Position numbers and translations under genes: made by a program. Positions 45,009 to 57,149 of a stretch of DNA of 64,000 nt are shown here, in pieces. How positions within the stretch are numbered: position 1 is the first letter of the stretch; each line of letters begins with the position of its first letter. The DNA is from Oribacterium sp. NK2B42. Its GTDB lineage: Bacteria > Bacillota > Clostridia > Lachnospirales > Lachnospiraceae. Location: NCBI RefSeq assembly GCF_000424445.1, contig NZ_AUJX01000010.1, positions 1 through 64,000 of the forward strand, given 5' to 3'. The notes beneath the pieces are model-generated. The model was not told the origin of the DNA and searched no databases. It worked only from the letters and a program-made list of their open reading frames with translations.

Positions 45009-47030
45009 TCATCCAACATACTCTACAGCGCTGTTTCCTGCGATCTGACCAAATACGATGATATCAGTTACAGCAGTTCCGCCAAGACGGTTTCCGCCGT
45101 GAACGCCTCCGGTAACCTCACCGGCTGCGAAAAGACCAGGGATAACTTCGCCTGACTTGTTGATAACTTCTGAATTAGTATTGATCTTAAGTCCACCCAT
45201 TGTGTGATGGATACCGGGAGTTACAAGGATTGCATAGTAAGGTGCTGTTGCAAGGTCGTTCTCATTAGAGAATGATGTACGTCCGAACTCCTCATCCTTC
45301 TTGTCAGCCCAGATCTTAGCCCAGCCTTCCATTGTCTCCTTGAATGCATCTGCAGGGATACCGATTGCCTCTGCAAGCTCCTCATAGGTCTCGCCCTTGT
45401 AGCCGTAACCGGAATCAAGGTAACCCTGATATACCTTAGAACCATCAATCATCTTCTGATCAAGGATAAGCCATGCAGTACCGTTTGTCTGCTCAATTTC
45501 TGCTGCAGAAACCTTATCTCTTGTTGAAACCTCATCGTAGAAACGCTTTCCTTCGTTGTTTACAAGGATAGCACCGTCACCACGAACACCCTCTGTGATA
45601 AGGTGGGCATTGCCGCCTTCATCGATATGAACTGTAGGATGGATCTGTATCTGATCAAGATCAACTACGTCAGCATTAACATCTTCAGCCTGTGCCATCT
45701 TGATACCCTGGCCGAGAACGCCGTCAGCATTGGTTGAACAGAAGCCCTTGAGATCAGGCCTGAGCTCTTCAACCATCTCTGAGTTTGCACCGAAACCACC
45801 GGTTGCAAGAACAACAGCCTTGGCATTAACAGTGATCTCGTTTCCGGTCTCACCCTCTGCAACAACGCCAACTGCCTTGCCGTCCTCCATGATGATCTTG
45901 TTAGCTGTGGTATTGTAGTAAACCTCGATACCGTCTCTGTCCTCTACGTTCTTTGTAAGAGCGGGAACGATGAATGCACCAACTGCAAGTGTCTTGCCCT
46001 CTGCATCTACAGGTCTGTGGATACGCTTAACTGAAGCTCCGCCGGCTGCACCAACGGAAGGAAGCTCTGCATTGTGCTCCTTAAGCCATGTGATGGCACC
46101 TGCTGAATTCTTTGTAAGTGTATCAACAAGCTCAGGATCGTTGATCCCATGTCCGCCAATGATGGTATCCAGAGCCATAAGCTCGGGAGTATCGAAATAT
46201 CCGTCAGGTGAAGCCTGGTAAGCATCCCACTGCTGCTGAACTGTTGCAGCAAGCTTTGTGATAGTCTCATTATCAGCCCACTTCTCAGCTGCTGTCTTGA
46301 GAGTCTTCTCAACACCATCACCCTCTGTGAACTCATTCTTCTTCTGATATTCTGTACCTGCAGCATTGAGACCACCGGTTGAACGGACTGTATTTCCTCC
46401 GCCCATTGCCTGTGACTCAAGGATAACTACCTTCTTACCTGCGTCAGCTGCTGTAATGGCTGCTGTCATACCTGCGCCGCCCATACCAACAACAACTATA
46501 TCTGTATCGATGGACATATCCTCAGCTTTTTCAACTGCCGCATCGATCTCTACTGAATCAAGATCCTCAGGCTTAAGTCCTGCCTCTGCCAGAGCTGCTG
46601 TTGCTGCCTTAACGATGGCATCTGACGTGATGGTTGCGCCGGAAACAGCATCAACCTGAACTGTGTTTCCTGCTATCATCTTCTCAGGGAAATCAGCGAT
46701 AGGCTTTGAACCTATACCATCAGTCTCTCCCGGACCTTCAATCTTAACGTCTGCGATCTTTCCATCTTCAAGTGTCAATGTAACTGTTACAGGGTTGCTG
46801 TCACCGTGGATTCCCGGTGCTGATCCTGTAAATGTTCCTGAAACCGCTCCTCCCTCTGCTGCCGGAGCTTCTGTTGCTGCGTCTGTCGCAGCTGCGGTTG
46901 TTTCTGCCTCCGGTGCTGCTGTTGTTGCTGCCGGAGGAGTGCTTCCGGCACATCCTGCAAGGGCTGTTGCTGTCATGGCTCCTGCCATAACCACTGAAGT
47001 AATCTTTCTACCCAGTTCAAGTTTTTTCAT
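45009..47030 (-). CDS. surface FMN/FAD lipoprotein reductase (fumarate/urocanate reductase-like)
   Basis: A 673-residue flavoprotein. Lipobox LAGC (Cys27) and a Thr/Ala/Pro linker (30-60) place it outside the membrane. An FMN-binding domain (62-145) has QVDAVSGATITS, where Thr133 is the expected site of covalent FMN attached by ApbE. The rest is a fumarate-reductase-type FAD domain: IVVVGMGGAGMTAAI, GGGNTVRSTGGLNAAG, and GIHHTMGGLK, AAGEVTGGVHGGNRLGG at the end. It probably reduces an extracellular acceptor such as fumarate, urocanate or an acrylate. The substrate is unknown. GAGAGG precedes the ATG. Divergent from the RpiR regulator. Confidence 0.9.
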   Translation of the reverse strand: MKKLELGRKITSVVMAGAMTATALAGCAGSTPPAATTAAPEAETTAAATDAATEAPAAEGGAVSGTFTGSAPGIHGDSNPVTVTLTLEDGKIADVKIEGPGETDGIGSKPIADFPEKMIAGNTVQVDAVSGATITSDAIVKAATAALAEAGLKPEDLDSVEIDAAVEKAEDMSIDTDIVVVGMGGAGMTAAITAADAGKKVVILESQAMGGGNTVRSTGGLNAAGTEYQKKNEFTEGDGVEKTLKTAAEKWADNETITKLAATVQQQWDAYQASPDGYFDTPELMALDTIIGGHGINDPELVDTLTKNSAGAITWLKEHNAELPSVGAAGGASVKRIHRPVDAEGKTLAVGAFIVPALTKNVEDRDGIEVYYNTTANKIIMEDGKAVGVVAEGETGNEITVNAKAVVLATGGFGANSEMVEELRPDLKGFCSTNADGVLGQGIKMAQAEDVNADVVDLDQIQIHPTVHIDEGGNAHLITEGVRGDGAILVNNEGKRFYDEVSTRDKVSAAEIEQTNGTAWLILDQKMIDGSKVYQGYLDSGYGYKGETYEELAEAIGIPADAFKETMEGWAKIWADKKDEEFGRTSFSNENDLATAPYYAILVTPGIHHTMGGLKINTNSEVINKSGEVIPGLFAAGEVTGGVHGGNRLGGTAVTDIIVFGQIAGNSAVEYVG

Positions 47031-51815: not shown

Positions 51816-52757
51816 TTACTCAGCAACTTCCAACAGGGTAATGTCGAAATTCAGCGCCTTTCCCGCAAGTCTGTGGTTTCCGTCAAAGGTAACAGTCTCC
51901 GAAGTCTTCTCGGTCACCGTAACAGGGAAGCGCATTCCCATATCATTCATGAGCATGATATCCTGTCCGATCTGAAGATTCTCTGACCCAGGAACTTCTG
52001 AAATATTTGCGACAAGCACTTTCTTTTCATTATATTCACCGTATGCATCTGCCGGCTCGATATGGATGCTCTTACTCTCTCCGACCTCCATATCAACAAC
52101 CACCTTGTCAAATCCCGGGATCATCATGCCGACACCGGCAACAAAGGATAACGGCTGATTGCGGTCATAAGATGAATCAAACTTGCTTCCGTCATCAAGA
52201 GTTCCTGTGTAGTGAACGCTTACTGACTTACCGGCATTCTTACCCTCGTAAATGATGCTCATTTCACGGCTTCCGCCGCAGCCACCGCAATCGCCTTCGC
52301 AATCATCTCCGCAGTCACAGCTTTCTTCATCATGATGTCCACAGCCGCAGCCACTTGCTTCTTCACTCTCTCCATTATGATCGTGATGTCCGCAATGATG
52401 ACCCTCACCGTGATGGTGATCTTCTCCATGATGGTCACAATTTACACCCTGGGAAACCAGATTTCCTGCAAGGAACTCCTCAACAGCTTTATCTGTATTT
52501 CCGGTTGCTCCCGAAATAACCTTGATACCCATTTCTGCAAGAGCTGCCTGTGCACCGCCTCCGAGTCCGCCGCAGATCAATGTATCAACCTCTGCATCCT
52601 TAAGAACTCCTGCAAGAGCCTCATGCCCTGCACTGCCGGAGCCAAGGATCTCACTTGCTGTGATTTTTCCATCCTCTACTGTATAAAGCTTAAATTCTTT
52701 AGTCTTTCCAAAATGCTGAAAAACCTGACCATTATCATAAGTAACTGCTATCTTCAT
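51816..52757 (-). CDS. NifX/NifB-like domain fused to a His/Cys-rich linker and SlyD-type FKBP
   Basis: A 313-residue fusion. Residues 1-100 are a dinitrogenase iron-molybdenum cofactor-binding type domain (NifX/NifY/NifB C-terminal fold; VTYDNGQVFQHFGKTKEF, ICGGLGGGAQAALAEMGIKV). Residues 105-165 are extremely rich in His and Cys (HHGEDHHHGEGHHCGHHDH; CGCGHHDEESCDCGDDC), a probable metal store. Residues 170-313 are an FKBP prolyl isomerase of the SlyD type (VHYTGTLDDG, LSFVAGVGMMIPGFDK, DGNHRLAGKALNF). It is likely a cytoplasmic metal-binding chaperone. GAGG precedes the ATG at 52757. An internal ATG at 52262 could give a stand-alone FKBP. Confidence 0.85.
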   Translation of the reverse strand: MKIAVTYDNGQVFQHFGKTKEFKLYTVEDGKITASEILGSGSAGHEALAGVLKDAEVDTLICGGLGGGAQAALAEMGIKVISGATGNTDKAVEEFLAGNLVSQGVNCDHHGEDHHHGEGHHCGHHDHNGESEEASGCGCGHHDEESCDCGDDCEGDCGGCGGSREMSIIYEGKNAGKSVSVHYTGTLDDGSKFDSSYDRNQPLSFVAGVGMMIPGFDKVVVDMEVGESKSIHIEPADAYGEYNEKKVLVANISEVPGSENLQIGQDIMLMNDMGMRFPVTVTEKTSETVTFDGNHRLAGKALNFDITLLEVAE

Positions 52758-52832
52758 TTGATACCTCATTTTCTCTTATTGATTTCTAAATAACCTCTAA
52801 AGTATAAGGTATTTGTCAAATTATTGAAAGCA

Positions 52833-53513: not shown

Positions 53514-53942
53514 ATGAATGACAAACAGTATCATAGTGCTTCGCATTGAAAATACCTTATACAGTATCACATTATATGGTGTCCTAAATTCAGATTTTCT
53601 GTATTAAAAGGGAATGTTGATGTTGCCCTGAAGAAGATATTACAGAAAATATGTAATGACTATGGATACCTTATAAAAGCACTTGAAGTAATGCCGGATC
53701 ACATACACATATTTGTAGATGTTCCGCAGACAGTGGCGCCTTGTGGAGTAGTAAGTACACTCAAAAGCATAAGCGCTATTGAACTCTTCAAAGCATTCCC
53801 ACAACTAAAACAGTTCTATGCAAAATGCGGTGCTCTATGGTCAAGAGGGTATTTTGTATCAACAGTAGGTCACATAAGCGAAGCAACAGTAATTAAATAC
53901 ATCAAGGAACAGAAAAACCATGACAAATCAAGAATACAATAA
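53514..53942 (+). pseudogene. tnpA: IS200/IS605 TnpA transposase with an early stop codon
   Basis: Reading from the ATG at 53514 (AGGGA upstream) gives MNDKQYHSASH, then TGA at codon 12, after which the same frame runs on for 130 codons: KYLIQYHIIWCPKFRFSVLK, MPDHIHIFVDV (HUH metal site), and IKYIKEQKN with the probable catalytic Tyr. A single base change in a Ser codon could have made the stop. No frameshift was seen. Unless TGA is read through, no active transposase is made from this copy. Confidence 0.85.
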
Positions 53943-55530
53943 GCTTCTGAAACAATATCATAAACTTTCTGACAGACATATTTTAGTTGCAGAGACTGAT
54001 ATGCCTTATTCTGATGTACAAAAGGTTGTTGCTCTTTCTGATAAGGTCCGCAAAGCAGGTAACGAACTTGTTGGCCTTATGAGAAAGAATCATGACCAGC
54101 TTATACGCACAAAGAAATACCGTAAACTTCTCAATCTATACGGAAATACTGAGAATAAGGTACATCGTAAATCTCTGGCTAAACAGCTTAACGAAATGCA
54201 GAAAGTCTATAATGTAACCTGGGATTTTTGCAGGGCTTCCATGATACCTATCGGCAAGAAATACGGCATAGATGCAGTATTCGCTCTCACTAAAGCCGAG
54301 GATGTATGGCGTGGTATGGAAAAATGTCTTTATAGTAACGGAGAGATGCTTCATTTTTCCAAGTACGGAGAGCTTCCCTGCATCAGAGCAAAGCAGATAA
54401 ATCGTGGAATACCTGTCTCTATAAAAGATAATAAAGTGCAGTTTAAACTTGGTAGGATAATGTTTGGGTTGCAGATAAAGGATAGATTTCAAACCGATGA
54501 AATAAATGCTGTCATGTCATATCTTGCCAATCCTGAGATTATGGATACAAAAGCGGTGGATACATTTATAGAAGGAGCCCGTTGCATAGACACATACAGA
54601 CCCTGCTATGCTACTCTTGTTCCCAAATTCATCAGGGGAAAATACAGGGTATACCTTCATCTGACCATTGAAGGCAAAGCGAAGCCTAAATATGATAAGT
54701 TTGGCAATCCAAGGCATAAATATGGTAAGGGAATTATAGGTGCTGACATAGGAACACAGACTGTTGCCTATACCTCTGATACGGAAGTCGGATTAAAGAA
54801 CTTATCTGAACGAGGTAACAGTATACAAGATTCAGAGCGTTTGGAAAGACTGTATTACAGAGCTATGGACAGATCAAGGAGAGCAACTAATCCTCAGAAT
54901 TACAATGATAACGGTACAGTTAAGAAAGGCAGGAAGTCTTGGAAATACTCAAATCATTACAAGAAACTGCGGGCTAAACATTCTGAGTTATGCCGTATCA
55001 ATGCAGTAAACAGGCAACTCGCAATAAATGAGGATGCTAATCATTTGAGAAGTCTTGGCGATACATTCATAACAGAACCTAAAAACGCAAGCAAATTGAT
55101 GAGACAAGTAAAGAAAACAACTAAAAACGCCAAAGGTAAATTCAATAAGAAAAAGCGGTTTGGCAAGTCCATAAAGAATAGATGTCCGGACGGATTCCAA
55201 ACTACGGTGAAAAATAAATTCAAGGTTTCAGGTGGTACATATATAGAAGTACCAAACAATTATAGAGCGAGCCAGTATGACCACACTGCTGATGATTATA
55301 TCAAAAAGAAGTTGTCTGACAGAATTTATAAACTCCGAGATGGGACTATGGTTCAAAGAGATTGGTATTCATCATTTTTACTTTACTGTTACGATTGGAA
55401 GACTAAAAATGTAGACAAAGACAAATGTATTGCGACTTTTGACAAGTGTCACACAAAAGAAAAAGCCCTGATCGCATGGATCAAGGCTAATAAGATTAAA
55501 ATACTAAACAGCGGAATTAAGGTAGCTTAA
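53920..55530 (+). CDS. tnpB: TnpB RNA-guided nuclease, variant without zinc-finger cysteines
   Basis: A 536-residue RuvC-like nuclease of the TnpB family. RuvC catalytic residues: Asp276 in GADIGTQTVAY, Glu386 in FITEPKNASK, Asp481 in VQRDWYSSFLL. TnpB normally carries a CxxC...CxxC zinc finger between the last two; here that segment (440-480) is NNYRASQYDHTADDY... with no cysteine pair. It is also longer than the usual 400 or so residues. The start overlaps the tnpA end by 23 bases. No stop or frameshift interrupts it, although tnpA is dead. Confidence 0.88.
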   Translation: MTNQEYNKLLKQYHKLSDRHILVAETDMPYSDVQKVVALSDKVRKAGNELVGLMRKNHDQLIRTKKYRKLLNLYGNTENKVHRKSLAKQLNEMQKVYNVTWDFCRASMIPIGKKYGIDAVFALTKAEDVWRGMEKCLYSNGEMLHFSKYGELPCIRAKQINRGIPVSIKDNKVQFKLGRIMFGLQIKDRFQTDEINAVMSYLANPEIMDTKAVDTFIEGARCIDTYRPCYATLVPKFIRGKYRVYLHLTIEGKAKPKYDKFGNPRHKYGKGIIGADIGTQTVAYTSDTEVGLKNLSERGNSIQDSERLERLYYRAMDRSRRATNPQNYNDNGTVKKGRKSWKYSNHYKKLRAKHSELCRINAVNRQLAINEDANHLRSLGDTFITEPKNASKLMRQVKKTTKNAKGKFNKKKRFGKSIKNRCPDGFQTTVKNKFKVSGGTYIEVPNNYRASQYDHTADDYIKKKLSDRIYKLRDGTMVQRDWYSSFLLYCYDWKTKNVDKDKCIATFDKCHTKEKALIAWIKANKIKILNSGIKVA

Positions 55531-55986: not shown

Positions 55987-56087
55987 AAAACCCGATTCCG
56001 ATTTTAACGATTTTTTTGCCGATCAGATCGGTGTCTATATGTCTAAATTAAACTAAAGAAATATGAGTTCACAAAGGAGAAAGCATT

Positions 56088-57149
56088 ATGAACCTGATCA
56101 AGAAAAATATATCGATATTGCTGCTGATAATGTCTATGGCGGTGCTTCAGACCGGATGTGAACAAATAAATACACCTGCAATAGAGGAAACCGTTAAAGA
56201 AAGCTCGCCGGAATCTGTATCGAAGATCGAATCGGAGTTCGTAAGTGAATCTGTATCCGAAACAGCATCCGAACCTGCAAATGATTCTGTATCGAAAATC
56301 GAATCTGAGCCGGCAACTGAATCAGAATCCGCAAATAAATATGATTCCGCAATTGTAAGTTATCTCGGACCCGAGGGAACCTATACCCAGGAAGCCTGTG
56401 GTGTGTTTTTCGAAAAAAAAGGAACGTACGCTCCGTATAAAACAGTTTCCGAAGCGGTAGAAGCATTGATCAATGGCGAAAGTAAATATGCAGTAATTCC
56501 GCAGGAAAACACCATCGGCGGAGCCGTGACAGACTATGTCGACATCGTTATCAACCAGAAGGAAGTTTCCGTTGTCGGTGAAGTGGAATTGCCCATCAAT
56601 CAAAATCTCCTGGTTTTGCCCGGGACTGAAGCCGGAAATATAGAAAAGGTATACTCTCACAAGCAGGGCATTGCCCAGGGAAAAGACTGGCTGAAGGAAA
56701 ATCTTCCGAAGGCTGAGATCATCGAAGTATCCAGTACTGCCGAAGGCGCGAGACTTGTGGCTGAAGAAGGTAATGCCTCTAACGCTGCCATTGCATCTGC
56801 TGCCTGTGCCGAGGTCTACGGACTTGAGGTCCTGGCAGCCGGCATACAGAATAATGACAGCAATAAAACCCGGTTCTACGTTCTTTCAAAGGATAATCCG
56901 TCTATGGATAAGAACGAAAGAATGGCATTTGTGGCTTCCGGAAAAGCTGAAGGTCTTCCTGGACTTTTGGCTCATCTTGAAAATGCAGGAGCAAAGCTTG
57001 TGACGATCCATGACAGACCAAGAAAAACCGAACTTGGTGAGTATAATTATCTCATTGAGTGCTCAGACTTAAGTTATGAAGATTACGAAAAGCTCACAGG
57101 AAACCATTCCTTTGAATTCAGGTATCTTGGTGAGTTCCATGTGAAATGA
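56088..57149 (+). CDS. prephenate dehydratase as a surface lipoprotein, with ACT domain
   Basis: A 353-residue protein. It starts with a signal peptide and lipobox LQTGC (Cys24), then a 60-residue Glu/Ser-rich linker with repeated SKIES(E/F) units. Residues 87-270 are a prephenate dehydratase domain: YLGPEGTYTQEA (92-103), VIPQENTIGGAV (137-148), and the catalytic TRF (261-263). Residues 278-350 are an ACT regulatory domain (GLPGLLAHLENAGAKLV) with HDRPRK in place of the usual ESRP. The enzyme makes phenylpyruvate from prephenate, normally in the cytoplasm; export is the surprise. AAAGGAG precedes the ATG. It is flanked by gene remnants. Confidence 0.9.
   Translation: MNLIKKNISILLLIMSMAVLQTGCEQINTPAIEETVKESSPESVSKIESEFVSESVSETASEPANDSVSKIESEPATESESANKYDSAIVSYLGPEGTYTQEACGVFFEKKGTYAPYKTVSEAVEALINGESKYAVIPQENTIGGAVTDYVDIVINQKEVSVVGEVELPINQNLLVLPGTEAGNIEKVYSHKQGIAQGKDWLKENLPKAEIIEVSSTAEGARLVAEEGNASNAAIASAACAEVYGLEVLAAGIQNNDSNKTRFYVLSKDNPSMDKNERMAFVASGKAEGLPGLLAHLENAGAKLVTIHDRPRKTELGEYNYLIECSDLSYEDYEKLTGNHSFEFRYLGEFHVK

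Follow-up and report, generated by a model that had tools for sequence, protein, structure and literature searches.

The closest described parallels to the gene treated here, a putative exported prephenate dehydratase (PDT) of Oribacterium sp. NK2B42 encoded in a stretch of 64,000 nucleotides (contig NZ_AUJX01000010.1, positions 1 to 64,000; "the window"), are the periplasmic cyclohexadienyl dehydratase (CDT) PheC and the rare fusions of chorismate mutase (CM) with CDT. In the parts of the report on the CM-CDT fusions that are drawn on here, these enzymes are described as exported in beta- and gamma-Proteobacteria, as free of feedback by phenylalanine and as accompanied by a retained cytoplasmic CM-PDT; PheC is said to have probably evolved from solute-binding proteins, and the purpose of exporting enzymes of the shikimate pathway is termed an enigma (PMC10520331). 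No report of an exported enzyme of the PDT family was found in a literature search judged by titles and abstract openings. As judged from its Pfam domain, its residues and its predicted fold, the window protein is a PDT; by motif it is not a phenylalanine-regulated PDT, and it is not PheC. The textbook cytoplasmic PDT itself appears here in an exported form, as a lineage apart from PheC.

Protein layout, predicted export and distribution

The gene is a single intact open reading frame (ORF) of 353 codons with an ATG start (56088..57149, forward strand) in the ORF list of the window. Its parts are as follows:

56073..56079 (+), Shine-Dalgarno-like AAAGGAG, its last base 8 bases ahead of the ATG; rated a good ribosome-binding site from the sequence
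56088..57149 (+), gene for a predicted exported (lipoprotein-like) PDT, 353 amino acids plus stop; from the ORF, the PDT match (E 1.2e-59) and a layout shared by separate genomes
56088..56156 (+), predicted signal peptide, residues 1-23, with L-Q-T-G at its end ahead of Cys24; from the sequence and the signal-like N-termini of relatives
56157..56159 (+), codon of Cys24, with which the mature protein is predicted to start and which would carry the lipid; from the sequence and a Cys in 12/12 relatives, with a non-canonical Gln at -3
56160..56348 (+), putative flexible Glu/Ser linker, residues 25-87; from composition, low model confidence and variable length among relatives
56355..56897 (+), PDT catalytic domain, residues 90-270, with E140, N141, S190, Q197 and T261; from Pfam and alignment with Escherichia coli PheA
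56913..57146 (+), ACT-like domain, residues about 276-353, with HDRP (308-311) and Glu288; from the PRK11898 alignment, structure match and motif counts

A preliminary description, made from the letters of the window alone, had proposed a surface lipoprotein with a Glu/Ser linker of about 60 residues, a whole PDT domain with its catalytic TRF and an ACT domain, and most of this layout is borne out. Pfam PF00800 (PDT) matches residues 90-270 over profile positions 1-180 of 181 (E 1.2e-59, 201.6 bits against a cut-off of 25.2), and T261 corresponds to T278 of E. coli. The NCBIfam equivalog PRK11898 (NF008865) aligns with residues 90-350 at 211.9 bits, slightly below its cut-off of 219. The Pfam ACT model gave no score on the window protein; the C-terminal domain is called ACT-like because of the PRK11898 alignment (to residue 350), the AlphaFold2 model and the full-length matches to solved PDT-ACT enzymes. 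The model has a mean predicted local distance difference test score (pLDDT) of 79.6, with residues 85-353 mostly >90 and residues 1-81 mostly <50. Among the 64 residues 25-88, 14 are Glu and 15 are Ser, and linker length differs between relatives.

A family profile built from 13 members was scanned against 84,980 species genomes and found 304 relatives, the best 80 of which are the named loci of this study. Their N-termini were judged by two rules, both home-made and crude. By the first, all 78 loci that could be judged (two of the 80 are cut by contig ends) carry a lipobox-like or other segment resembling a signal peptide or transmembrane helix, against 0/69 cytoplasmic PDT controls. This rule counted 57 lipoboxes but admitted weak sites (e.g., L079). 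The second rule, whose strict lipobox pattern is PROSITE-like, gave 48 strict and 19 loosened lipoboxes (the window protein in the latter group) and none in 11 out of 78, again with 0/69 controls positive. Of these 11, the N-termini of the Spirochaetia loci L112, L113 and L123 and of L086 (Riflebacteria) resemble signal peptides that are cleaved off, and those of L085 and L130 resemble membrane anchors; in the spirochaete loci L068 and L089 the Cys is present.

The window protein itself begins with MNLIKKNISILLLIMSMAVLQTGC, a basic n-region followed by a hydrophobic core and then Cys24 in L-Q-T-G-C, and a Cys occupies the place of Cys24 in 12/12 relatives from whole-genome searches. The signal peptide and the Cys of the LQTGC named in the preliminary description are present; with Gln at -3, which is not the usual lipobox residue, the site passes the loosened rule only. 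From these signals the window protein is almost certainly exported and, in an estimate kept separate because its lipobox is non-canonical, very probably lipid-anchored in the source genome. Export is predicted to be a property of the whole examined family.

A conventional cytoplasmic CM-PDT of 380 amino acids, which the preliminary description had proposed to look for, lies on another contig of the same genome (G000:C1:275.4-276.4 kb) and is 31% identical to the window protein. Because the genome retains this enzyme, the exported PDT is an additional copy. The earlier ideas of an outward-facing PDT distinct from the cytoplasmic one and of a changed ACT motif are supported.

Within the genus, at least one exported copy is present in 7 out of 17 genomes and some PDT in 16 out of 17. 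Across the family, a copy of at least 46% identity was found in 6 out of 397 genomes, each with at least one exported N-terminus; the next matches among those listed reach at most 37% identity, and the 24 inspected (L010-L033) are not exported. The Lachnospiraceae are the group in which the preliminary description had recommended a search for signal-bearing PheA-domain proteins. In a draw of 398 genomes from the phylum only the window's own genome passes the family profile at 1e-60 (1/398). Five loci (L007, L008, L009, L053 and L054) represent a second, more divergent exported PDT subclade of like lipoprotein layout, with 47-49% identity to the window domain.

According to their record labels, the Bacillota among the 80 loci belong to the Lachnospiraceae (Oribacterium, Butyrivibrio and others), Ruminococcaceae/Oscillospiraceae, Erysipelotrichaceae, Mogibacterium and Eubacterium, and the other phyla are the Spirochaetota (Treponema and other Spirochaetia/Spirochaetales), Actinomycetota (Coriobacteriaceae) and Candidatus Riflebacteria. 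Ruminant or rumen labels occur in 49 out of 80 titles: 20 give a ruminant host and a gut site (goat, sheep, yak, roe deer, water deer and water buffalo), one gives reindeer only, and 28 have RUG names, a tag for rumen uncultured genomes that is found, like the phrase itself, in papers on the rumen. Seven isolates, not counted in the 49, we take to be rumen strains, and 24 titles have no verifiable habitat (5 RUI, 6 UBA, 10 SRR bins and 3 others). Soil, sea or human material is named in 0/80 titles. The exported PDT is thus not peculiar to the Oribacterium genome or to the Lachnospiraceae: the family extends over several phyla, and many records come from the ruminant gut. Among viral contigs there were 46 pattern matches, none of them a relative, and 78 plasmid records all showed <60% identity, with 37.5% in the best row; two of the five plasmid rows listed are annotated pheA, and at the other three no gene is listed.

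Active site, ACT domain and descent

Residues were matched by alignment to the real E. coli PheA sequence. The 88 exported rows compared consist of the window protein, the 80 named loci and seven loci from whole genomes, including the identical pairs L005/L070 and L006/L087 and the incomplete rows L106, L109, L138 and L140; the 69 cytoplasmic rows are the best-scoring matches of the family, genus and phylum searches rather than a random sample. E. coli E159, N160, S208, Q215 and T278 correspond to E140, N141, S190, Q197 and T261 of the window protein and are identical in 88/88 exported rows. The ratio of nonsynonymous to synonymous substitution rates (dN/dS) is 0.05-0.22 in 12 out of 13 pairs, with dS saturated in some, and 0.41 in the remaining pair, which has very little divergence. 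Because the five catalytic residues are invariant and dN/dS is low, catalysis is under constraint, and a catalytically active enzyme of the PDT type is quite probable. At ten positions the exported clade has a near-fixed residue that few cytoplasmic rows share; Q139, G144, Y150 and Y264 are four of them and belong to the PxEN and TRF motifs or lie close by.

The AlphaFold2 model matches solved PDTs with Z 24-27 over 255-262 residues (6vh5, 2qmx, 3mwb, 2qmw and 3luy). Individual scores are 26.9 for 6vh5, 26.3 for 2qmx, 26.1 for 7am0 and 25.9 for 3mwb, and differences within 1 are ties. Both by sequence and by fold the closest solved chains are PDTs, and the window protein scores PF00800 and no solute-binding Pfam family up to E 1, which places it outside the PheC lineage. 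The preliminary description had contrasted it with periplasmic cyclohexadienyl dehydratases of a different, solute-binding-type fold. The contrast holds only in part, since the PDT domain is itself similar to binding proteins of type II. With the window model, the Foldseek matches include ABC solute-binding proteins (E about 1e-6 to 1e-8), and VIA-align finds ModA/PtxB at Z about 8, which could alone reflect a common arrangement. The paper on GqqA, a PDT homologue of Komagataeibacter europaeus, likewise calls the PDT catalytic domain a PBP domain (PMC8192741).

The ACT domain tells a different story from the active site. Phenylalanine is bound by the motifs G-A-L and ESRP. The Gly of G-A-L (E. 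coli G309) is present in 69/69 cytoplasmic rows versus 2/88 exported rows and is replaced in the other 86, by Glu288 in the window protein. The ESRP position reads H[DE]RP in 83/88 exported rows and ESRP, QSRP or SSRP in 67/69 cytoplasmic rows; the change to HDRP (residues 308-311) had already been noticed, the loss of G-A-L had not. Given both replacements, the regulation by phenylalanine suggested earlier is unlikely. Judged by conservation, the usual phenylalanine site has been lost and some other feature of the ACT domain is constrained: the active site appears to have been kept while the PHENYLALANINE switch was rebuilt in the exported clade.

In a tree built from 84 exported and 69 cytoplasmic domains, the exported set lies on one side of a single branch with full support (Shimodaira–Hasegawa-like approximate likelihood ratio test, SH-aLRT, 100) and on a long stem of 1.18 changes per site; the tree is the result of a quick search, with L106, L109, L138 and L140 left out and a long-branch warning on the neighbouring row L171. 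On this tree the exported proteins form one clade, which points to one origin. Members from the Spirochaetota, Coriobacteriaceae and Riflebacteria are 62-71% identical to the window domain versus about 30-40% for most cytoplasmic PDTs listed, which suggests a spread of the exported PDT through gene transfer. On an 82-row tree the five spirochaete rows require three changes, and L068 falls inside a Lachnospiraceae group (bootstrap 99). Forcing the five rows into one clade was not rejected (approximately unbiased test, p-AU 0.18), and a strict proof of repeated cross-phylum transfer was dropped for this reason. Mis-binned contigs are possible for L068, L086 and L139, each from a single metagenome-assembled genome (MAG).

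Gene neighbours, fusions and putative exported acetolactate decarboxylases

An all-against-all BLAST of 854 ORFs revealed no recurrent neighbour: the commonest non-PDT cluster occurs in 6 out of 80 loci, of which only 46 have at least 2 kb on both sides. The PDT cluster itself covers 75 instead of 80 loci because at least one cluster of five loci consists of antisense ORFs over the PDT gene. An ABC transporter lies beside the exported PDT in at most 3 out of 80 loci in the clusters shown. As no neighbour recurs beyond 6 out of 80 loci, no dedicated transporter or sensor operon is seen. When 14 loci, 13 from the set of 80 and the one in the window, were scanned with Rfam, no T-box or other leader was found; the single match is a cyclic di-GMP-I riboswitch just 3' of the exported PDT gene at L073:3562-3651 (+).

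The PDT domain has been joined to other secreted proteins in several loci. It is C-terminal to a GH3 lipoprotein in MC2017 (L072:5901-8798) and to signal-bearing branch-2 histidine phosphatases in L079:2252-4366, L118 and L127 (by Pfam) and in L125 (by likeness to L118). In a congeneric MAG, L034:166-2295 (+), on the same contig as L074, encodes a lipoprotein of 709 amino acids that combines an intact alpha-acetolactate decarboxylase domain (PF03306, E 2.3e-70) with an exported PDT; misassembly may lie behind this fusion, which is known from a single MAG.

Acetolactate decarboxylases with export signals also occur on their own. The source genome encodes one of 570 amino acids with, by eye, a signal peptide and a long Lys/Glu-rich linker (contig C21, L056:508-2220, +), in addition to a cytoplasmic paralogue (L057). 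Two of the seven genomes of the genus with an acetolactate decarboxylase have an exported form, and the other five have only cytoplasmic ones. In the family, the enzyme occurs in 16 out of 397 genomes, and four loci (L186-L189) have lipoprotein-type leaders as judged by eye.

In the window, the PDT gene lies between an IS200/IS605-like pair upstream and a GGDEF protein gene downstream. The transposase-like pair (about 53540-55530, +), by eye TnpA/TnpB, is directly upstream, and its larger ORF has no Pfam match. A promoter and terminator scan gave 4 promoter-like sites versus 5.4 expected and 4 terminator-like sites versus 1.7 expected, with no terminator-like site after the exported PDT gene. 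Two further genes of the window were noticed for their domains:

51816-52769 (-), one ORF with a Nitro_FeMo-Co domain (NifX-type, PF02579), a His/Cys-rich stretch and an FKBP-type prolyl isomerase (PF00254); possibly a metal-handling chaperone
45009-47030 (-), lipoprotein-like protein with FMN-binding and FAD_binding_2 domains; a putative outward-facing flavoprotein resembling fumarate reductase

Possible functions and comparison with known systems

The explanation that we favour, and to which we give about an even chance, is that of an active, feedback-free, outward-facing PDT which would turn external prephenate into phenylpyruvate, both substrate and benefit being inferred. A PDT-family enzyme would have been relocated permanently outside the cell, where here a lipid anchor most likely holds it. 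The sequences show an export signal, complete catalytic residues, purifying selection, a missing signature of phenylalanine feedback, one clade spread over several phyla, the lack of a recurrent neighbour gene and the retention of a normal cytoplasmic PheA. The prephenate would come from leakage by living cells or, in the ruminant gut, from the lysis of microbes and plant tissue, and would be converted at the cell surface to phenylpyruvate, CO2 and water. Phenylpyruvate, unlike the labile dicarboxylate prephenate, could be taken up and then transaminated to phenylalanine or used as a precursor of phenyl acids. Feedback by phenylalanine would be useless outside the cell and would have been lost. 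That salvage of external prephenate is the benefit we put a little below an even chance. Prephenate and acetolactate are both labile intermediates of amino-acid synthesis, and the export of enzymes for both is the strongest hint towards salvage.

Several observations weigh against this explanation. The window lipobox passed only the loosened rule, with its unusual Gln at -3, and both activity and localisation are predictions from sequence. No exported CM_2 chorismate mutase was seen in 12 carrier genomes (13 places, 12 N-termini inspected; AroH-type CM was not searched). The CM_2 enzymes look cytoplasmic in 12/12 of these genomes, the second CM of G380 being a cytoplasmic CM-shikimate kinase, so prephenate would need to arrive ready-made from elsewhere, and the literature search found no report of free prephenate in rumen fluid. 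The substrate may differ, because the class-specific Q139, G144, Y150 and Y264 flank the active-site motifs. E. coli PheA E232 is reported as a substrate-binding residue in the GqqA paper (PMC8192741); this position is Ser in the window protein and in 82/88 exported rows, although cytoplasmic PDTs of the Bacillota vary there too. Finally, the ACT-like domain has been kept under selection despite its lost ligand site, which salvage does not explain.

A further scenario, which we hold only tentatively and consider improbable on balance, is that of a single-gene mobile extracellular enzyme of the ruminant gut. A PDT-ACT enzyme would have been exported once, the rim of its active site (Q139, G144, Y150 and Y264) and its ACT site (H[DE]RP) rebuilt for a new external substrate and effector, and the gene later exchanged between Bacillota, Spirochaetota, Actinomycetota and Riflebacteria and joined to secreted enzymes. 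If this were true, a whole community would have in common an extracellular step of aromatic metabolism, and the protein would be no stray biosynthetic enzyme.

A sensor of lysis or neighbours, in which the surface enzyme would turn prephenate, normally internal, into a signal of lysed neighbours, is unlikely. A lysis signal has been proposed for the exported CM-CDT enzymes, the nearest functional precedent, in the part of their report cited above (PMC10520331); the ACT-like domain is retained with a new and nearly fixed H[DE]RP, and the GGDEF gene lies downstream in the window. However, no receptor, transporter or sensor gene recurs around the 80 loci (top non-PDT cluster in 6, 46 with 2 kb on both sides), the five catalytic residues are invariant, and fusions to hydrolases suit enzymes better.

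To a similarly small degree we would credit an enzyme that has the PDT fold but an altered or additional activity, e.g., a GqqA-like acylase of N-acyl homoserine lactones (AHLs) or beta-lactams that acts outside the cell on antibiotics or signals made by competitors. One of the closest structural matches is GqqA (7am0, Z 26.1), which is reported to complement an E. coli pheA mutant and also to hydrolyse 3-oxo-AHLs and some penicillins (PMC8192741); the class-specific residues beside the active site would permit a changed substrate. Yet the 7am0 match is no better than those to ordinary PDTs (6vh5 26.9, 2qmx 26.3, 3mwb 25.9; a tie), and the same source gives a millimolar Km for AHLs (PMC8192741). 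The docked residues Y16, S17 and T174 of GqqA do not discriminate, because by eye they look like positions common to PDTs.

The pure binding role fits the data worst among the rivals, and a solute-binding lipoprotein derived from the PDT fold that hands its ligand to an ABC importer is very unlikely. Gram-positive binding proteins are lipoproteins and the PDT fold resembles type-II binding proteins, but an ABC transporter accompanies the gene in no more than 3 out of 80 loci in the clusters shown, the invariance of E140, N141, S190, Q197 and T261 in 88 rows is unexpected if catalysis were lost, and the forms fused behind GH3 or phosphatase domains are unlike importer parts. The joining of a lipoprotein gene to pheA in a chimeric ORF, through a frameshift or through misassembly, against which the preliminary description had cautioned and for which nothing speaks beyond the oddity itself, was dropped as having next to no probability, since the same layout recurs in separate assemblies including isolate genomes, the cytoplasmic pheA is present separately and the exported domain falls in a deep clade apart from cytoplasmic PheA (31% identity to the PheA of its own genome, SH-aLRT 100).

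With labels of ruminants or rumen on 49 out of 80 loci, the question of why shikimate-pathway enzymes occur outside the cytoplasm gains an ecological handle. Cultured hosts exist among the named Oribacterium and Lachnospiraceae isolates, and the prediction is clean: an activity insensitive to feedback, and a ligand for the rebuilt ACT domain. If salvage of prephenate by an outward-facing PDT is true, an extracellular step is added to the supply of phenylalanine in the rumen.

The enzyme shares features with four known systems. Like the acetolactate decarboxylases of L186-L189, it would be a decarboxylating small-molecule enzyme with a lipoprotein-type leader (by eye in the decarboxylases), and one exported form of that enzyme is fused to an exported PDT (L034); the families are unrelated (PF03306). 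GqqA (7am0, 7alz) has the same PDT-ACT fold (Z 26.1) and is credited with an extra activity on small molecules of other cells; it differs in its 22% identity and in its 281 amino acids with the PDT domain starting from position 1, which leaves no leader or linker like those of the window protein, as far as the cited part of its description goes (PMC8192741), and it does not figure in the tree. PheC and the exported CM-CDT enzymes are similar in their chemistry, which is assumed to be the same, in their location outside the cytoplasm, in the retained cytoplasmic CM-PDT and in that no phenylalanine feedback is reported for them in the portion cited (PMC10520331). An ACT domain goes unmentioned there for PheC, whereas the window family consists of PDT-ACT enzymes that are mostly lipoprotein-like, belong mainly to the Bacillota and come with no exported CM_2 in the 12 genomes. 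The cytoplasmic PDT and P-protein PheA (PF00800 PDT plus ACT) are matched along residues 87-353 by the PDT-ACT fold (Z about 26) and by the same catalytic residues, and from these the window protein differs in its export signal, the absence of a chorismate mutase domain, the replaced Gly and ESRP of the phenylalanine site and the residues Q139, G144, Y150 and Y264.

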